Virus record (IMG/VR): IMGVR_UViG_3300009702_000025
Span: 1 to 64,000 of that record
Direction: 5' to 3' (one strand)
Length of the DNA: 64,000 nt
DNA from: a virus
A model generated the notes under the pieces. The model was not told the origin of the DNA and did not search any database. It saw only the letters and a list, made by a program, of their open reading frames with translations. Numbering within the stretch: position 1 is the stretch's first letter; each line of letters begins with the position of its first letter. Positions 11,245 through 52,582 of this stretch are shown here, piece by piece. Made by a program: the position numbers and the translations under genes.

Positions 11245-12008
11245 TTACTTCTGTTTATGTGCTTCGTTCTTTATCCTGATGTAGGCTAAGTACCTAGCAA
11301 ACTCTTCGGGTCCAACCGTATCCATTACCTCCCACTCGAATTTGCCTAATAACTCACAGACCGCTAGAACGTTTATGCGGCCTGGGTTGTGCCGGAGTTT
11401 TTTTCCTGATCCTTAACAGACACTTTCGTAAGGTCACGTATGGTATCAGAAAGTCGGTCAAAATCATCACCAAACGGAAGAGACATAAGTTCCTCGGTAT
11501 GTTCAATACCGAAAACTTTCTCATTCGTGCCCGGAACATAGGCGTAGCGAATGATAGTCTTAACCAATGATAACTGCTTGTCACCGTCGTCTTCTTCTGC
11601 TGCCAATTCGGAAATAGCGCCAAGTGTCTGCTGACGAATTTCGATGTCCTGACCAAAGAAGCGAATGACCTTCTTCTTCAGTTGCTTGTTGGCACCTGAG
11701 AAGATCGCAGCGCGCATATTCGCGGCGATATTACCACCACCATTAGCGTGGGGAGGAACAGACGCTTGTGCAACAGGCACGACGTTACCCGGCTGTCCCT
11801 GCCTTGCTACGAGCGCCGCAGCGCTTACTTGACTGTCCCCACTGACATTTGAAGGATCGAATTGTGCAGTACCACCATTCTGTTCGGCCATAAGGTCAGC
11901 CGCCGTTAGCGCCCTTCCCTTACCTGCACCGCTGCTATTTCGTTTCTGCGTCGGTGACTGGACCACTGGGCCTGTAGTTCCGGCTTCGTCCTGTTCTTTC
12001 TCTGACAT
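11245..12008 (-). CDS. Tail assembly chaperone, -1 frameshift (G-T) product
   Basis: Predicted fusion of 254 residues: the zero frame is read from ATG 12008 to the slippery site at 11397-11403 (204 residues), then the -1 frame continues for 50 residues to TAA 11245-11247. The T part contains CELLGKFEWEVMDTVGPEEF and ARYLAYIRIKNEAHKQK, fully open and filling the otherwise empty space before the tape measure. This mirrors lambda gpG/gpGT, where the fusion coats the tape measure while tail tube is recruited. Seen directly: the slippery heptamer and open -1 frame. Inferred: frameshift use and ratio. Confidence 0.85.
11373..12008 (-). CDS. Tail assembly chaperone, zero-frame (G) product
   Basis: 211-residue protein located between tail tube and tape measure, the position of tail chaperones. 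The N-terminal ~95 residues are low-complexity (Gly, Ala, Gln, Pro, Val); the conserved part begins near KKKVIRFFGQDIEIRQQTLG and ends with SDTIRDLTKVSVKDQEKN followed by SGTTQAA. The last seven residues are encoded after the slippery site, so most ribosomes are expected to make this form. The start overlaps the upstream 98-residue gene by 74 bases. Confidence 0.88.
   Translation of the reverse strand: MSEKEQDEAGTTGPVVQSPTQKRNSSGAGKGRALTAADLMAEQNGGTAQFDPSNVSGDSQVSAAALVARQGQPGNVVPVAQASVPPHANGGGNIAANMRAAIFSGANKQLKKKVIRFFGQDIEIRQQTLGAISELAAEEDDGDKQLSLVKTIIRYAYVPGTNEKVFGIEHTEELMSLPFGDDFDRLSDTIRDLTKVSVKDQEKNSGTTQAA
11397..11403 (-). promoter_or_regulatory. -1 ribosomal frameshift slippery site A-AAA-AAC
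   Basis: On the minus strand, codons GAA AAA AAC form the heptamer A AAA AAC in the correct phase for simultaneous -1 slippage. The zero frame stops 22 bases further on (TAA 11373-11375); the -1 frame stays open for 50 codons. This heptamer is a classic efficient bacterial slippery sequence. Confidence 0.85.
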
Positions 12009-15638: not shown

Positions 15639-16553
15639 TTACGCAGAGCCATGAACGATACCGTTGTGATCTTCGCCGTCACGCTTAATACGGATCGGCA
15701 TGATAGCCATGACAACGTACTCGTAAACGAAGCCGCCGTGTGACTTCCACTCAACCAGACGTGGCTGAATACCGTCGATGACCTGAATTACATCAGAAGT
15801 CATTTGGACCAAAATCACAGTGTTAGCGGGCAGGTAGTAGTTCGTCTTAATAGCTGACAAACCTTCAATCTTCATCAGACGTTCCCGAATGGTCCGTCCA
15901 GTTGCAGTTGTCGTATCGTAGTCGTCATCCATACGCTGTTGGTAGTTATCAGGGATGTACAGATAGTACGGCCCATACTGGAAGTCGTCACGAGCGGCCT
16001 GCATCATACCAAGAACATCGTCCTTGATTTGCACAGCAGTCCGACCGGTCCATGCACCACAGAGAGTGAAAGCATTCCGGTGTGGATAGTTCGTGAGACC
16101 GTAAAGAGAGCCAGCCCCGCCAGTACCAGTGTTGAACGATCCCTTAACAGCCAAGTCCTCAATGGTCTCAACCACGATACGTGTAGCAACATTGGCGTGC
16201 TCTGTATCAAGTGGAAGTCCCTGACGACGTGAGGCTTCCAAGTGACGAAGGTTGAGGCGGAAACCCTTATGAACAATCGGGATCGGGATACTGTCTTGTT
16301 CGTAAGTCAGACGATCCCTAATGTCTGCTGCTTCCGCCGTCATGTCCACTTGCGCGGGGTCCATGTCGGAAATACGGTCCCATGTCAATTGCATAGTGCC
16401 CATAGCGTTGCCAAGAGAGTACTTAAGGCCAGCGCCCATCAAATCCGAGATGATAGAGAACCGTTCTTGAGCAACTTGTACTACGGCCCTATCATATTCC
16501 TCCCACTCATCACGGCGAAGTACCGAAAGAGTGCGAAGTGCTCCCGTGTCCAT
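15639..16553 (-). CDS. Major capsid protein (encapsulin-like HK97 fold)
   Basis: 304 residues from ATG 16553, in the capsid position between decoration and neck genes. It reads like encapsulin-type phage capsid proteins: RTLSVLRRDEWEEYDRAVVQ near the start, a central TYEQDSIPIPIVHKGFRLN and LPLDTEHANVATRIVVETIE, and YEYVVMAIMPIRIKRDGEDH at the end. No ribosome binding site precedes ATG 16553. In the same frame a second ATG at 16646 has an excellent one (AGGGGG), but the frame is broken by TGA at 16584-16586; the intervening residues DLAQRFLASG look like genuine capsid N-terminal sequence. The full protein would be about 335 residues. Confidence 0.88.
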   Translation of the reverse strand: MDTGALRTLSVLRRDEWEEYDRAVVQVAQERFSIISDLMGAGLKYSLGNAMGTMQLTWDRISDMDPAQVDMTAEAADIRDRLTYEQDSIPIPIVHKGFRLNLRHLEASRRQGLPLDTEHANVATRIVVETIEDLAVKGSFNTGTGGAGSLYGLTNYPHRNAFTLCGAWTGRTAVQIKDDVLGMMQAARDDFQYGPYYLYIPDNYQQRMDDDYDTTTATGRTIRERLMKIEGLSAIKTNYYLPANTVILVQMTSDVIQVIDGIQPRLVEWKSHGGFVYEYVVMAIMPIRIKRDGEDHNGIVHGSA

Positions 16554-16583
16554 GCCGGAAGCAAGGAAGCGTTGTGCAAGGTC

Positions 16584-16646
16584 TCAATGTGCCGCGAAAT
16601 TAAGTCCGTTGCCATCGCCTTGTGCTGTGATTAAATCGACGGGCAT
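16584..16646 (-). other. Interrupted 5' end of the major capsid gene (in-frame TGA)
   Basis: ATG 16646, preceded by CAGGGGGACATTTA, opens a 20-codon frame (MPVDLITAQGDGNGLNFAAH) that ends at TGA 16586-16584 and is in phase with the capsid gene downstream (31 codons before ATG 16553). After the TGA the frame continues open straight into the capsid protein. Explanations are a point change or sequencing error (TGG or CGA to TGA), UGA read-through, or a leader peptide that restarts at 16553. Confidence 0.7.
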
Positions 16647-16699
16647 TAAATGTCCCCCTGTCCTTTCAAACTGTACTAGTGTGTGATGTGGTCTAGTTA

Positions 16700-22681: not shown

Positions 22682-25600
22682 ATGGGTGTAGGCATGAAAG
22701 TAGACCGTCTATTCACGATGAACTTAGATGGATCAAAAGGACAAAGCCACGATCCGTTCTCCTTATTCAGATGGAAAGAAGTAGCCGTCCTAATCAAGGA
22801 TGCACAAGGGAACATACTCTGTGATATACCAAATCTCGAAGTACCAGAACATTGGTCGCAACAAGCGGCAGAAATACTTGGACACAAATATCTCCGCAAG
22901 TCAGGCGTTCACTCTGGTTACGAGAAAAAAGATGAGCCCCATGTTCCAAAGTGGCTCCAACGGGTAAAACCCGGTACTGCTACTGAAGAATTACCGGGTA
23001 GCGAAACATCCTTCCGACAAGTTGCTCACCGCATTGCAAGCCATTGGACTTACGCAGGCTGGAACCGTGGATACTTCGGTCCAACAACTACTCTTCAAGA
23101 TGGTGTAGCCGGACAGGAACCTGAAGATTTCGAAACGAGGACAATTATTACTCCTGCTTCGGAAGAAAATGCGAGAGCTTTCTATGACGAGATCGTCTAT
23201 ATGCTCTGCGCACAAATGGTAGCTCCGAACTCTCCACAGTTCTTCAATACTGGCTTGTGGTGGGCATACGGTACTCGTGGCGAAACGATCAACTGGATCG
23301 CAAACCTCAACCAAGACGTAGACAAGTCTGATTTGCGTGTTCCGTCCGAACAGCTTGGTATAGACAATGCCTACGAATACCCACAAACGTCAGCCTGTTT
23401 TATCTCCTCCATCGAAGATACTCTGATCGGCAAGAACGGCATTATGGATGCCTTAACTCGCGAAGCTACGATCTTCAAGTACGGCAGTGGTAGCGGGATC
23501 AACTACTCCACGCTACGCGCCAAGGGTGCAAGCCTCTCTAGTGGGGGTAAGTCTTCTGGCATGATGTCCTTCCTCAAAGTGTTCGATGCGAACGCTGGTG
23601 CAATAAAGAGTGGTGGTACTACTAGACGTGCTGCCCGTATGGTAACTGTAAATGCGGATCATCCAGAAGCACTAGACTTCGTGAAGTGGAAACACCGAGA
23701 AGAACTCAAAGTCGCTGCTATGGAGATAGGTGCTTCCTTTATGGAAGAAGGAGCTGTTGACGCAGGAGAACATGATGATGCTGACTTACTTTCTACATTG
23801 AATGGTGACTATGAAAGCGAAGCCTACGAAACGGTAAGTGGTCAGAACTCCAACAACTCCCTCCGTGTGACTGACGAGTATATGGAAACTCTTTCCGAAG
23901 ACTTAGAAGACGACAAGTTTCATATGTCTTCTACTCCTAGTGGAGTACCAATGGAGCCTTCTGAAGATATCATTAGTGAGCACAATCTTGTAGAAAGGAA
24001 CCAAGAACTCTGGGATGCACTTACTAAGTGTGCTTGGAGTTGTGGTGATCCGGGTATTCAGTTCCACGATACTGCCAATAAGTGGCATACGGTCCCAAAA
24101 GTAGATGCTATAAATGCTTCTAATCCATGTTCAGAGTTCATGTTTTTGGATAATTCGGCGTGTAATTTAGCGTCTATTAACCTAATTGCCTTCTACAAAG
24201 AGGGTAGTTCGCAGTTCGATGCCATGGGTTTCATGCATGTTGTGGACCTATTCATACGAGTTCTGGACATAACAGTAGGTATGTCGAGCTATCCAGACCG
24301 AGTTGTAGCCGAGAACTCTGTTAAATACCGTCCATTGGGCCTTGGTTACGCCAATCTAGGCGGACTTCTCATGGCAATGGGCGTTCCGTATGGTTCAAAA
24401 GAGGGATTACGGGTCGCAGCAGCGGTCACAAGCCTTATGCAAGCCCAATCCTTCCATACTTCGGCTGAGATGGCTCGTAAGATCGGACCTTTCCACGACT
24501 ATTCCACTCATCACGATGATGTAAAGCGAGTTATAGCACTACATAGAGACGGATGCGATCATCTTGAGTACGCCGATATTGTTGACCCTGTGGATAATGA
24601 CCCTATTGGTCGTGTGCTTGAAGAACAAGAAGTATTGTGGAACACACTTGATATATCGGATGGTATACGTAATGCCCAACTTACCTTGTTAGCCCCGACT
24701 GGTACTATCTCATTTATTATGGACTGTGCTACCACCGGGATTGAACCTGAGTTCTCTCTTATCAAAATGAAGAAACTGGCTGGTGGTGGGACCATGAAGA
24801 TGGTCAACCCAATGATAGCTCGCGGTCTTGATGCTTTGGGCTACGATCAATCAGAGATCAATAGCATTCTTGAGTTCATCGAAGAACACGGTGTAGTTCC
24901 TGTTGAAGACTTAGAGCACCCGTCTCATGCCGAAGTATTCGATTGTGCCAATGACATTCCATGGCAACAGCACATAGCCATGATGGCATATGTTCAACCG
25001 TTCCTCTCTGGTGCTATCTCCAAGACAGTGAATATGCCTGCTAATGCGACCAGAAAGGATGTCGCACAGTCTTACGTCATGGCATGGAAGCTCGGTCTGA
25101 AGGCACTGGCGATCTATCGAGATGGCTGCAAAGACTCTCAGCCCCTCACGGCCTTGAAGAAAGACAAGGACACGACCGGGAGCGGTACAGGCGGTAATGG
25201 CTCAGATGAGAACCGCGAGAATACGGGCACGCCACACGATCAGGAGCGTATCCCCGAGCCTGTTATGGAAGCTCCGGCTCCACAGCCCATGCCTAATCCG
25301 GAACCGGAACGTCAGCCTGAGCCGGAACCTGTTGCGGTTCCAGCGGTTGATCCAGCGGTGTCTGAACACATCGATCCAGTGACCGGAAAGTTCGAACCTC
25401 CAAAGGATGAGAACGGGAAGAGGAGTGGACTTCGAAAAACTGGCTACATCCGGTGTGATGCAGAAGGTAATCCTTTGAAAGCAGGAAGCCGTTACAAGCT
25501 ACCTGCTAGACGTGCTGGCTTCACTCAGAAGGTCAGGGTCGGCGGCTACAACATGTACTTGCGGACTGGCGAGTACGAAGACGGTTCCGTCGGGGAAGTC

Positions 25601-26203
25601 TTCATCACCATTGGTAAAGAAGGTTCCATGATGAAGCACGTCGTTGACGCCCTCGCTATCGCGATGTCTCTCGGCTTGCAATACGGTGTTCCATTGGATG
25701 AGTACGTTGAAGCCTTCGTAGATAGCAGATCGGAACCCAGTGGCTTTGTGTCGGGAAGTGAGAATGTACGTATGTGCTCCTCGCTTCTTGACTACATCGT
25801 CAAGGAACTCGACGCGACTTATGGACATGGACAATTCCTTTCTAAGAAGGACGGGGTTGAACCAACTGTTTATGTCGATCACGCTGGTCCCGGTGGAGAT
25901 ACTACTGTCTATCATACCGTGAGCCCAAGTGCACGCCTTGAGCTTCCTAAGAAGGCCAATGAAAGTAAGTTGCCCGTACTTAACCCATCCAAGACGAATA
26001 ATGCAAATGGTTCTGATGGTACGCACATAACAAGTACTGGACTTGTTGCTAATGTACGACACATGACTGCTAATGGGAAAGGGCATGTTACGAAAATTGC
26101 TTATAGCGGAAGTCCGTGTCCGTCGTGCTTTGATTTCACACTACGGCGCAACGGAAGTTGTTTCGTATGTGATAACTGCGGATCAACAACTGGATGTAGT
26201 TGA
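22682..26203 (+). CDS. nrdJ: Adenosylcobalamin-dependent (class II) ribonucleotide reductase
   Basis: 1173 residues; reduces ribonucleotides to deoxyribonucleotides using vitamin B12 coenzyme, supplying phage DNA precursors without a separate radical subunit. Seen: GSGSGINYSTLRAKGASLSS, the cysteine motif NPCSEF at 481-486 with SACNLASINL, the LAPTGTISFIMD loop at about 670, and C-terminal GEVFITIGKEGSMMKHVVDA. A Pro/Glu-rich linker (about 850-890) separates the catalytic core from the C-terminal part. The last 28 residues hold CPSC, CFVC, CDNCG and the terminal GCS, a zinc-ribbon/redox tail. It stands alone between a promoter and a terminator. Confidence 0.95.
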   Translation: MGVGMKVDRLFTMNLDGSKGQSHDPFSLFRWKEVAVLIKDAQGNILCDIPNLEVPEHWSQQAAEILGHKYLRKSGVHSGYEKKDEPHVPKWLQRVKPGTATEELPGSETSFRQVAHRIASHWTYAGWNRGYFGPTTTLQDGVAGQEPEDFETRTIITPASEENARAFYDEIVYMLCAQMVAPNSPQFFNTGLWWAYGTRGETINWIANLNQDVDKSDLRVPSEQLGIDNAYEYPQTSACFISSIEDTLIGKNGIMDALTREATIFKYGSGSGINYSTLRAKGASLSSGGKSSGMMSFLKVFDANAGAIKSGGTTRRAARMVTVNADHPEALDFVKWKHREELKVAAMEIGASFMEEGAVDAGEHDDADLLSTLNGDYESEAYETVSGQNSNNSLRVTDEYMETLSEDLEDDKFHMSSTPSGVPMEPSEDIISEHNLVERNQELWDALTKCAWSCGDPGIQFHDTANKWHTVPKVDAINASNPCSEFMFLDNSACNLASINLIAFYKEGSSQFDAMGFMHVVDLFIRVLDITVGMSSYPDRVVAENSVKYRPLGLGYANLGGLLMAMGVPYGSKEGLRVAAAVTSLMQAQSFHTSAEMARKIGPFHDYSTHHDDVKRVIALHRDGCDHLEYADIVDPVDNDPIGRVLEEQEVLWNTLDISDGIRNAQLTLLAPTGTISFIMDCATTGIEPEFSLIKMKKLAGGGTMKMVNPMIARGLDALGYDQSEINSILEFIEEHGVVPVEDLEHPSHAEVFDCANDIPWQQHIAMMAYVQPFLSGAISKTVNMPANATRKDVAQSYVMAWKLGLKALAIYRDGCKDSQPLTALKKDKDTTGSGTGGNGSDENRENTGTPHDQERIPEPVMEAPAPQPMPNPEPERQPEPEPVAVPAVDPAVSEHIDPVTGKFEPPKDENGKRSGLRKTGYIRCDAEGNPLKAGSRYKLPARRAGFTQKVRVGGYNMYLRTGEYEDGSVGEVFITIGKEGSMMKHVVDALAIAMSLGLQYGVPLDEYVEAFVDSRSEPSGFVSGSENVRMCSSLLDYIVKELDATYGHGQFLSKKDGVEPTVYVDHAGPGGDTTVYHTVSPSARLELPKKANESKLPVLNPSKTNNANGSDGTHITSTGLVANVRHMTANGKGHVTKIAYSGSPCPSCFDFTLRRNGSCFVCDNCGSTTGCS

Positions 26204-48527: not shown

Positions 48528-50810
48528 GTGTCAGCGTCAAAGTCAGCCATTGCAAGTGATTTACGTCCTTTCCGTTTGACGGCAGAGGATATTGATGCTC
48601 GCACGCTCTCCGTTTCTGACCACGAAATACTGAAATTCAACAGGCCAATCAACGGATATAAAATTCCGTACTACGATATTAATGGCCTGCCAGTTAAGCA
48701 CTCTCGCATTCGTCACATTTCCGATAATGATAACGGAGATGGGTTGGAAGGAATAAACGGTTTCATTCGCACAAGCCAAGAGACCGCACGAGTTTATTTC
48801 CCGATTGGTTTCCAAGAGACATTGGAAATCGGACCTCACTACGAGGCATCGGATGGACGTAATCAGCGCGTTCTATTCATTACAGACGACGAGAGAGCTG
48901 CAACTTCCATTGTTAAAAAACACCAACACTCCGCAGTCGCTATTGAAGGGCCTGCCGGTTGGCAACTATTCAATGAAGTAGCTGGTGGGTTTATCGATCT
49001 AGTTGAGACTTGCATTGAAGACGATCTGTGCATCATGCTATGGATCGGGGATGGCAAAGATAAAAACATTCAGCGTGAGGTTGCTAACCTCGCCATGGAA
49101 TTGAAGTTTCGTGGCCTACCGTTCAAGTCTATACGTCAGTACAGAGAAGAGAAATTTGATGCGGACTTCATACGTCGTGACTTTGAGCCACGATCCTACT
49201 TTCCAAGGCACCCCAATATTCGTTCATACCTTCAAGAAAAGATTGGGGACAACGCAAGACTTAGCAGACGGGATCACATTGAGATCGGTTTGGCAATGCT
49301 ATCCGATATGGAAGCCCTAGGAATACGCATTCAATCAGAAACAGACGGCAACTATTACTACTTCAACCATGACACTAATGAGTTGATGCGTGCGACGATC
49401 AATGTGTCATCACGTGACATTCTCACAAACAGTGAGTTCATGAAGTGGATAAATAATCGGTATGGTATCTACATGGGAGACAGTGCGATCTTGAAGACGT
49501 TCGCAACCCAGTTCATGTCAGAAGAACCGATCTATCAGACACGCTCACACAAGGTGATAAAAGGAACACCACGAGGTGAAAACACGTTCCATCTCCAACT
49601 CACGGCATCAGACTTCGTATTCATCCCTGAGAAGATAAACAGGAAGGATGACTATGAGCTTGCACGTGTGACCACAAATGGTACAGGCGGGGTACTGTTT
49701 GAACGTGACGCAATTGAGCCTGTAGACCTTGAGTTGTTTCAGCATCACCTTGAGGAACAGCGATCCAAGAAACAACTCGACTTCTGGTGGGGAAACGTGG
49801 TGGATGAAGTACGCATGGATGCTATTGATGAGCAGCGTACCATCCTTGCACTGCTGTTTTATATCTCCCCTTGGTTGTTAGGATGGAAACGTATTCAACT
49901 TCCTATAGAGGTAGTTGTTGGAGAGGCTGGTAGTGGTAAGAGTAGTTTGTTCGTGTTGCGTCTCTCTATCATGACCGGGCGGCCAGACTTGAAGAACCTG
50001 ACAGGCTCACTCAAGGACTGGCAGGCTAGCGTCGTCAACAACCATGGTCTTATGGTGATGGATAATGTGCATTTAACATCAAAGTCTTTACGTCAGGGTC
50101 TTTCCGATGAGATGTGTCGTTTGGTGACTGAACCACAGCCAACTATCGAAGCGCGGCAACTCTACACGACCGCTGATGTGGCACGCTTTCCTATCGCGTG
50201 CACGTTCGGGATCACGAGTATTGAGAACGTTTTCACTAATGTTGACTTCATTCAACGGGCCGTTGTTACTCAACTTGATAAATCAGTAGGTCCAGCTAAC
50301 GCTAACTTCGATTGGGCGAACTTGAAGCTCAACGAGTTTGGTGGACGTGAAGCGTGGATGGCTCATCATGTCGTTGCGGTAGAGCGCTTCTTCAGAGCAG
50401 CAGACAAGTACTGGGATGATAGCTATAGATCACGGTCTCGCTTGATTAACTTTGAACAATCCATCATCACCATGGCACGTGTCTTTGGTCTGGATGTTTC
50501 ATGGATGCCGAAGGTGCTTCAAGGCATCTCAGATCGGAACATCGTAGAGTTGGATTGGGTACTTGAAGGTCTTCGTGCTTTTGCGTTAGAAAGACTTGAA
50601 AATGGACGTATGACCTTCAAGGCCGCGGAGATTTGCGATTGGGCATCTGGACATGACGATTTTATGGACAACTACGTACTCACAAATCCACGTCGAGTTG
50701 GTCGCTACATAACTTCTCACAAGACCGCTGTTCTTTCCACTACTGGTATAGAACGTCGTCAGACTGGCAAAACAACAGTGTATAGGATAAATTACACGTA
50801 CTTGGAATAG
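48528..50810 (+). CDS. Primase-helicase with DUF3854-like N-terminal domain
   Basis: 760 residues. The N-terminal region (about 20-250) includes DEILKFNRPINGYKIPYYDI, AIEGPAGWQLFNEVAGG and CIMLWIGDGKDKNIQREVAN, in the style of DUF3854/TOPRIM-like primase modules. The C-terminal half carries a helicase P-loop at about 465 (VVVGEAGSGKSSLFV) and a Walker B LMVMDNVHLT. It would prime and unwind the phage replication fork. It opens the replication block and is followed by RuvC-like and helicase genes. The start GTG 48528 is chosen. Confidence 0.8.
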   Translation: MSASKSAIASDLRPFRLTAEDIDARTLSVSDHEILKFNRPINGYKIPYYDINGLPVKHSRIRHISDNDNGDGLEGINGFIRTSQETARVYFPIGFQETLEIGPHYEASDGRNQRVLFITDDERAATSIVKKHQHSAVAIEGPAGWQLFNEVAGGFIDLVETCIEDDLCIMLWIGDGKDKNIQREVANLAMELKFRGLPFKSIRQYREEKFDADFIRRDFEPRSYFPRHPNIRSYLQEKIGDNARLSRRDHIEIGLAMLSDMEALGIRIQSETDGNYYYFNHDTNELMRATINVSSRDILTNSEFMKWINNRYGIYMGDSAILKTFATQFMSEEPIYQTRSHKVIKGTPRGENTFHLQLTASDFVFIPEKINRKDDYELARVTTNGTGGVLFERDAIEPVDLELFQHHLEEQRSKKQLDFWWGNVVDEVRMDAIDEQRTILALLFYISPWLLGWKRIQLPIEVVVGEAGSGKSSLFVLRLSIMTGRPDLKNLTGSLKDWQASVVNNHGLMVMDNVHLTSKSLRQGLSDEMCRLVTEPQPTIEARQLYTTADVARFPIACTFGITSIENVFTNVDFIQRAVVTQLDKSVGPANANFDWANLKLNEFGGREAWMAHHVVAVERFFRAADKYWDDSYRSRSRLINFEQSIITMARVFGLDVSWMPKVLQGISDRNIVELDWVLEGLRAFALERLENGRMTFKAAEICDWASGHDDFMDNYVLTNPRRVGRYITSHKTAVLSTTGIERRQTGKTTVYRINYTYLE

Positions 50811-51345: not shown

Positions 51346-51374
51346 TTGACAACATGTGTCAACAGTAGTACATT
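51346..51374 (+). promoter_or_regulatory. Sigma70-type promoter with inverted repeat
   Basis: TTGACA (51346-51351), 17-base spacer, TACATT (51369-51374). TTGACA and TGTCAA form an inverted repeat (51346-51362) that begins at the -35 box, a possible operator. The next gene starts 54 bases downstream. Confidence 0.65.
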
Positions 51375-51427
51375 CCTTTTATAGACACGATACATATACG
51401 CAAACACTCCAACCACTGAGGAATAAG

Positions 51428-52582
51428 ATGACGACAATTATCTCCACGTCTTTTCGTTCACGCTTGAAGGATGCCAACCGCGAAGTTGCAGCTATTGAAG
51501 ATGATGCTTCGTTTGAAGATCAGGATGCATTCGCGGAACACTGGTTCGAAAAGATCGATGCTATCGAAGAAAGTGACTACGTTGATGGTGCCGGTGAACA
51601 CGGCATCTTCTCGTCTGGTATGCTCACACAAGCTGCGCAGTTTGCTGACGACACCAAGTTCTGGGGCATCTCGATTGGTCTCGGCATGATCGACTACAAC
51701 GGCAAGTACCCGCAGTACGACCTTGGCAAGTTTGAAACGAGTATGGGCGAACTTATTGCAGACGGTTCACGGTTCATATCCAAGATTTGGTGGAACGCGC
51801 TGACAGAACATCGAGGACCGAAACTCTCCGACGTGATCTTGGAAGCTGTCAACGAACAGGATCGCGTAGTCATTGCTATCCCAGCAGTCATTTACCCGAT
51901 GATCCGCGACGACATTGAAGCTCTGATCCCTATGGAAGCTGACCATGCGGACAAGGATCAAGAGATGGATAACTTTGCTGAAGTCAAGAAGTACCTGCGC
52001 TTCGTCGGTCCTGATCTTGAGGAGACCGTTCATCCTGAGTTCCTTGACTGCGTAATGCCATGGGACAAGAACTTGCTATCTAAGGTGGTTCCCGGCGCGC
52101 GCACCAATGGTGCACGTCGCATGGCGTTCCTACTTGAGAAGGTCTGTGATGTCATAGGTACTGATCCGGCAGACGATTTCGACTCACTTTGGGATGCTCT
52201 GTCCAGTAATGAGCCTGCCGTTTACAGTTACGACGTGTCGGCACCGACTAGCGGTGAAGCTACGAAGTACGCTCGCCTTGAAGATGAGGAAGCGATTGAG
52301 ATCATCAAACGTGAATACTACACACGTTGCCACGGCTCGCCGGTTCGTATCGCTCGCCTAATGCGGAACGATGGCTACCACATGACCAAGGATCGTGTGG
52401 AGGAACTGATGGCCGCTCCCACTCCGAAGAAGAAAAGTAAACCGAAGGGTACAAATGGTTCCAATGGCACGGGTCGGAAGAAAAAGGCACCGGCTAAGAA
52501 GAAAACCGCAGGTGGTCGTCGCAAGCGGGCAACTGCCGCTGCATCGACTGACGAAACGGATGGTGCGGAAGCTGCTGCATGA
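51428..52582 (+). CDS. Unknown replication-module protein with histone-H1-like tail
   Basis: 384 residues from ATG 51428 (GAGGAA upstream); the frame extends further left, but the promoter at 51346 argues for this start. About 1-290 is acidic and globular (WFEKIDAIEESDYVDGAGEH, FWGISIGLGMIDYNGKYPQ); about 295-330 looks like an HTH (AIEIIKREYYTRCHGSPVRI); the last ~60 residues are basic, Ala/Pro/Lys/Arg-rich (KKKAPAKKKTAGGRRKR) before an acidic tip. It has its own promoter. Not recognised; a DNA-coating or replication-accessory protein is inferred. Confidence 0.75.
   Translation: MTTIISTSFRSRLKDANREVAAIEDDASFEDQDAFAEHWFEKIDAIEESDYVDGAGEHGIFSSGMLTQAAQFADDTKFWGISIGLGMIDYNGKYPQYDLGKFETSMGELIADGSRFISKIWWNALTEHRGPKLSDVILEAVNEQDRVVIAIPAVIYPMIRDDIEALIPMEADHADKDQEMDNFAEVKKYLRFVGPDLEETVHPEFLDCVMPWDKNLLSKVVPGARTNGARRMAFLLEKVCDVIGTDPADDFDSLWDALSSNEPAVYSYDVSAPTSGEATKYARLEDEEAIEIIKREYYTRCHGSPVRIARLMRNDGYHMTKDRVEELMAAPTPKKKSKPKGTNGSNGTGRKKKAPAKKKTAGGRRKRATAAASTDETDGAEAAA

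Follow-up and report, generated by a model that had tools for sequence, protein, structure and literature searches.

Capsid proteins of the DUF6260 family (PF19774, phrog_771) are encoded by the Brevundimonas phages vB_BpoS-MaInes and StAshley and by the Halorubrum phage Hardycor1, and align with the major capsid protein described here over nearly the whole core (~38%, ~38% and ~31% identity, respectively). Gene order in these phages is similar, with a small protein encoded directly upstream and an N-arm of ~30–50 residues. Unlike the sequence analyzed here, their N-arm frame contains no stop. Family 1 encapsulins (e.g. Myxococcus xanthus EncA) have the HK97 fold in common with this protein. 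However, they are cellular rather than viral and begin near the position equivalent to Met 16553. They carry no extended N-arm (PMC8346489). Stop-codon-recoded phages (codes 4, 15 and 25) are alike in that an in-frame stop occurs in a virion gene, whereas here there is a single TGA, TGA is still used as a stop, and the record contains no suppressor tRNA.

The window is the whole 64 kb stretch of DNA that was analyzed, part of a metagenome-derived IMG/VR virus record of 70,142 bases in which the capsid gene is single-copy. An earlier note described an in-frame TGA near the 5' end of this gene, and re-reading of the minus strand bears this out. The frame runs from ATG 16646 through 20 sense codons (MPVDLITAQGDGNGLNFAAH) to TGA 16586–16584, continues with DLAQRFLASG and ATG 16553, and is open to TAA 15641–15639. 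As recorded this copy is broken, and no continuous open frame includes the N-arm. The features, in the direction of the gene, are:

16652..16660, minus strand: Shine-Dalgarno region CAGGGGGAC of the capsid gene
16587..16646, minus strand: 20-codon 5' segment of the major capsid gene (MPVDLITAQGDGNGLNFAAH), assigned by homology to the N-termini of relatives and a strong Shine-Dalgarno sequence
16584..16586, minus strand: in-frame TGA; 67 of 70 aligned relatives have glycine in this column
16554..16583, minus strand: DLAQRFLASG, predicted N-arm helix of the capsid protein, 3' of the TGA; motif G-x-V-A-x-R-L-L conserved in relatives, helix at residues 22–29 in the model
15639..16553, minus strand: remainder of the major capsid protein (DUF6260/phrog_771, predicted HK97 fold), with ATG 16553 lacking a ribosome binding site

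Comparison of the relatives' proteins with the window yields 42 protein alignments that span TGA 16586–16584 in frame, so the continuity of the frame past the stop is not due to chance. The capsid TGA is the only recurrent sense-strand stop that this comparison finds inside conserved genes of the window; the remaining recurrent stops fall on the opposite strand, in shadow frames. The strong ribosome binding site previously reported at ATG 16646, and the lack of one at ATG 16553, are both confirmed. Anti-Shine-Dalgarno pairing at ATG 16646 is –9.4 kcal/mol, which is in the top 0.9% among 1060 minus-strand ATGs and equals the value for the major tail protein gene. At ATG 16553 the value is +1.9 kcal/mol, and 98% of minus-strand ATGs are at least as good. 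The capsid gene begins at ATG 16646.

Both the core profile match and the predicted HK97 fold place the protein among the DUF6260/phrog_771 major capsid proteins. In profile searches it matches PF19774 at 6.7e-27 (residues 11–302) and phrog_771 at 1.2e-29. For the structure model, the TGA was treated as an amino-acid position and alignment rows from annotated phage records were left out. The model (pLDDT 87) consists of a hairpin at residues 5–20, the affected residue immediately ahead of a helix (22–29), and a long helix at 45–62, with modest confidence for the first 20 residues (about 60). With E below 1e-17, the fold resembles that of encapsulins and of the capsids of Sf11 and TW1, and the best structural matches are family 1 encapsulins.

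A single-protein search for closest relatives in viral and genome contigs returned none, and an alignment query was needed, which identified 189 IMG/VR relatives. The best 80 of these 189 were kept, and phage records, a sequence found by a terminase search (L089) and three bacterial bins were added. The closest sequences among the best 80 of 189 and the additions are both from IMG/VR, L009 (52% identity) and L089 (48%). The order of genes from the terminase to the head-completion genes is the same in L089 as in the window. In contrast to the window, both have an intact N-terminus, with glycine aligned at the TGA column (in L089 with a local three-residue gap). Across this set the column is represented by 73 distinct relatives, 70 of them ungapped. 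Glycine is found in 67 of the 70, serine in two and aspartate in one, and a stop in none. The glycine codons used are GGT (29), GGC (17), GGA (11) and GGG (10), and the column corresponds to the glycine of the conserved motif G-x-V-A-x-R-L-L. Given this conservation, the residue originally at the TGA is, as judged from the alignment, glycine and not Trp or Arg, and the guess that the codon had been TGG or CGA does not hold. TGA and a glycine codon are separated by a single substitution. In the large genes ~25% of the codons one step from TGA are that glycine codon, so a glycine origin of the stop is ordinary. A strain-level DNA pattern in which the first base of the stop was left free gave no match and no strain-level relative, in a collection from which very near records may have been withheld. 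Phage records searched at the nucleotide level with the virion region gave no match either. A degenerate DNA pattern for DLAQRFLA matches four unrelated loci only.

Elsewhere in the window, a zero-frame slippery heptamer, A AAA AAC, occurs at 11397–11403 on the minus strand, near the end of the ORF that precedes the tape measure gene. The ORFs at this site are 11373–12008 and about 11245–11397 (minus strand), and the –1 frame after the heptamer holds 50 further open codons, with a stop just before the tape measure start. This arrangement looks like the –1 frameshift of siphophage tail assembly chaperones. The frequency of the heptamer in the window is neither lower nor higher than expected by chance. 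On the plus strand, a phage-encoded class II (B12-dependent) ribonucleotide reductase (22682–26203) adjoins the terminase, and in L089 it is also found beside the terminase. Two proteins of the replication region, of 760 and 408 aa (48528–50810 and 51356–52582, plus strand), show no match in PHROGs or Pfam. Among the relatives, L100 and L038, a Zixiibacteriota genome bin and an IMG/VR contig, share the same capsid N-terminus and gene, and this probably reflects a contig of viral origin placed in a bacterial bin.

The 20 codons 5' of the TGA resemble the N-termini of the relatives. Scored against a profile of the relatives' leaders, the peptide reaches 11.6 bits, the best of the 843 ATG-initiated 20-mers of the window that were scored; the second-best reaches 6.9 bits, and 3 of 2000 shuffles attain 11.6 bits. 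In relatives with a readable N-terminus the start lies ~30 residues or more upstream of the position matching Met 16553, and most of these starts have a recognizable binding site. Because the segment is the best match to the leader profile, and because of the relatives' starts and the glycine column, the 20 codons are, on grounds of homology, the genuine capsid N-terminus, and the TGA splits one gene. A regulatory leader peptide had also been suggested; the 20-codon ORF would then have no relation to the capsid protein, and a short ORF with a strong binding site directly before the capsid core is what such a leader would look like. However, the segment is homologous to the relatives' capsid N-termini, in the same frame and at approximately the right length before the glycine. 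This homology appears largely to refute a regulatory leader, which is extremely improbable. The 20-codon ORF could instead be a translated leader if translation started, or re-initiated, at ATG 16553 to give a truncated but functional capsid protein that lacks the N-arm. Re-initiation is conceivable at a distance of ~30 bases, which is that between the TGA and ATG 16553. Since family 1 encapsulins begin near this point without an extended N-arm, the remaining fold could be complete, and a product started here might fold. It would, however, miss a part that is kept in viral relatives, as those with readable N-termini retain the N-arm and mostly also the motif G-x-V-A-x-R-L-L, and in the model the N-arm hairpin and helix both precede Met 16553. 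The unfavorable pairing at ATG 16553 (+1.9 kcal/mol, no ribosome binding site) also argues against such a start, and DLAQRFLASG is still conserved 3' of the TGA, which would be needless if it were untranslated. The earlier note had named homologues that start at the equivalent of Met 16553 as a result that would refute its own observation. Viral relatives with readable N-termini start ~30 residues earlier, and a beginning close to that position is seen only in cellular cousins, the family 1 encapsulins. A functional internal start is quite unlikely.

Decoding of the UGA as an amino acid would involve programmed read-through, a host suppressor tRNA, selenocysteine, or a host in which UGA is read as glycine (code 25, Gracilibacteria/Absconditabacteria). 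The TGA falls exactly on the glycine column, as code 25 would require, and the frame is otherwise perfect. Standard-code phages possibly infecting code-25 hosts have also been proposed (PMC10746230). However, in-frame TGA is dense in code-25 phages (PMC10746230), and 12 large genes of the window (8631 codons, 711 of them glycine) contain none. Eleven of the 50 gene models have TGA as their stop, two of them virion-cluster genes (5128 and 13829), and reading it as sense would extend the TGA-ended genes by up to 88 codons. The whole 70 kb record contains no tRNA genes, hence no phage suppressor tRNA; an Rfam search for a recoding RNA element gives no match, and the sequence 3' of the TGA shows no unusual folding (z –1.2 to –1.6). 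With TGA a working stop, no in-frame TGA in the 12 large genes, no tRNA gene and no RNA family match, a changed code (UGA reassigned as in code 4 or 25), a phage-borne suppressor and selenocysteine are all unsupported, in agreement with the earlier dismissal of a changed genetic code. Selenocysteine was rejected for its lack of both an RNA family match and a sensible role in the capsid N-arm. Recoding limited to late genes was rejected as well, since TGA terminates two virion genes. Relatives in bacterial bins (Spirochaetota, Dadabacteria and Zixiibacteriota) give no hint of a code-25 host. Read-through of the UGA, which had been raised as well, gains no positive evidence. In published practice an in-frame stop is taken as a read-through candidate only when two or more genomes have it in common (PMC7918605), and the capsid TGA is a singleton, found in 0 of 70 relatives. 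Read-through of a few percent would probably starve the virus of an abundant protein. Decoding of the UGA by any of these routes is unlikely. Very unlikely is a genuine, fixed TGA at which the host inserts an amino acid (perhaps glycine) while other UGAs terminate, gating capsid synthesis.

The sequence comparisons strongly favor a lesion of one base, with the phage major capsid gene otherwise normal: an error in the consensus or a nonsense mutation of the ordinary, disabling kind. The conserved glycine that immediately precedes the N-arm helix would have become TGA by one substitution. Either the metagenome consensus base may be wrong, or the sampled virus may bear a disabling nonsense mutation, possibly as a minority variant. 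A true nonsense mutant might survive via complementation or weak natural UGA suppression. As the capsid gene is essential, the virus could not survive a nonsense mutation that was fixed and unsuppressed, and this tips the balance toward an error or a minority variant. The earlier note had listed sequencing error and natural mutation among the possible causes, and both the glycine column and the lack of the stop in any relative support this. The tail protein and other virion proteins have full-length profile matches, and the rest is intact. A second such lesion is present in one relative (L013, positions 2391–2540), where a frameshift in the capsid N-terminus separates LLAGGFKTNA from LRTLDLLRK. 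L013 is one of about 85 relatives in which the region is covered, so single lesions are to be expected now and then in metagenomic contigs, and any screen of many such stretches will turn some up. We infer that the stop has no function.

For annotation the matter is one of hygiene, as gene callers would take Met 16553 as the capsid start and lose the N-arm. On its own, one in-frame stop in a viral contig from a metagenome is no evidence for a code change, even where it falls on a conserved glycine. Should the TGA prove to be fixed in the population of this virus, capsid synthesis would be under a switch of one codon, and that would be new.
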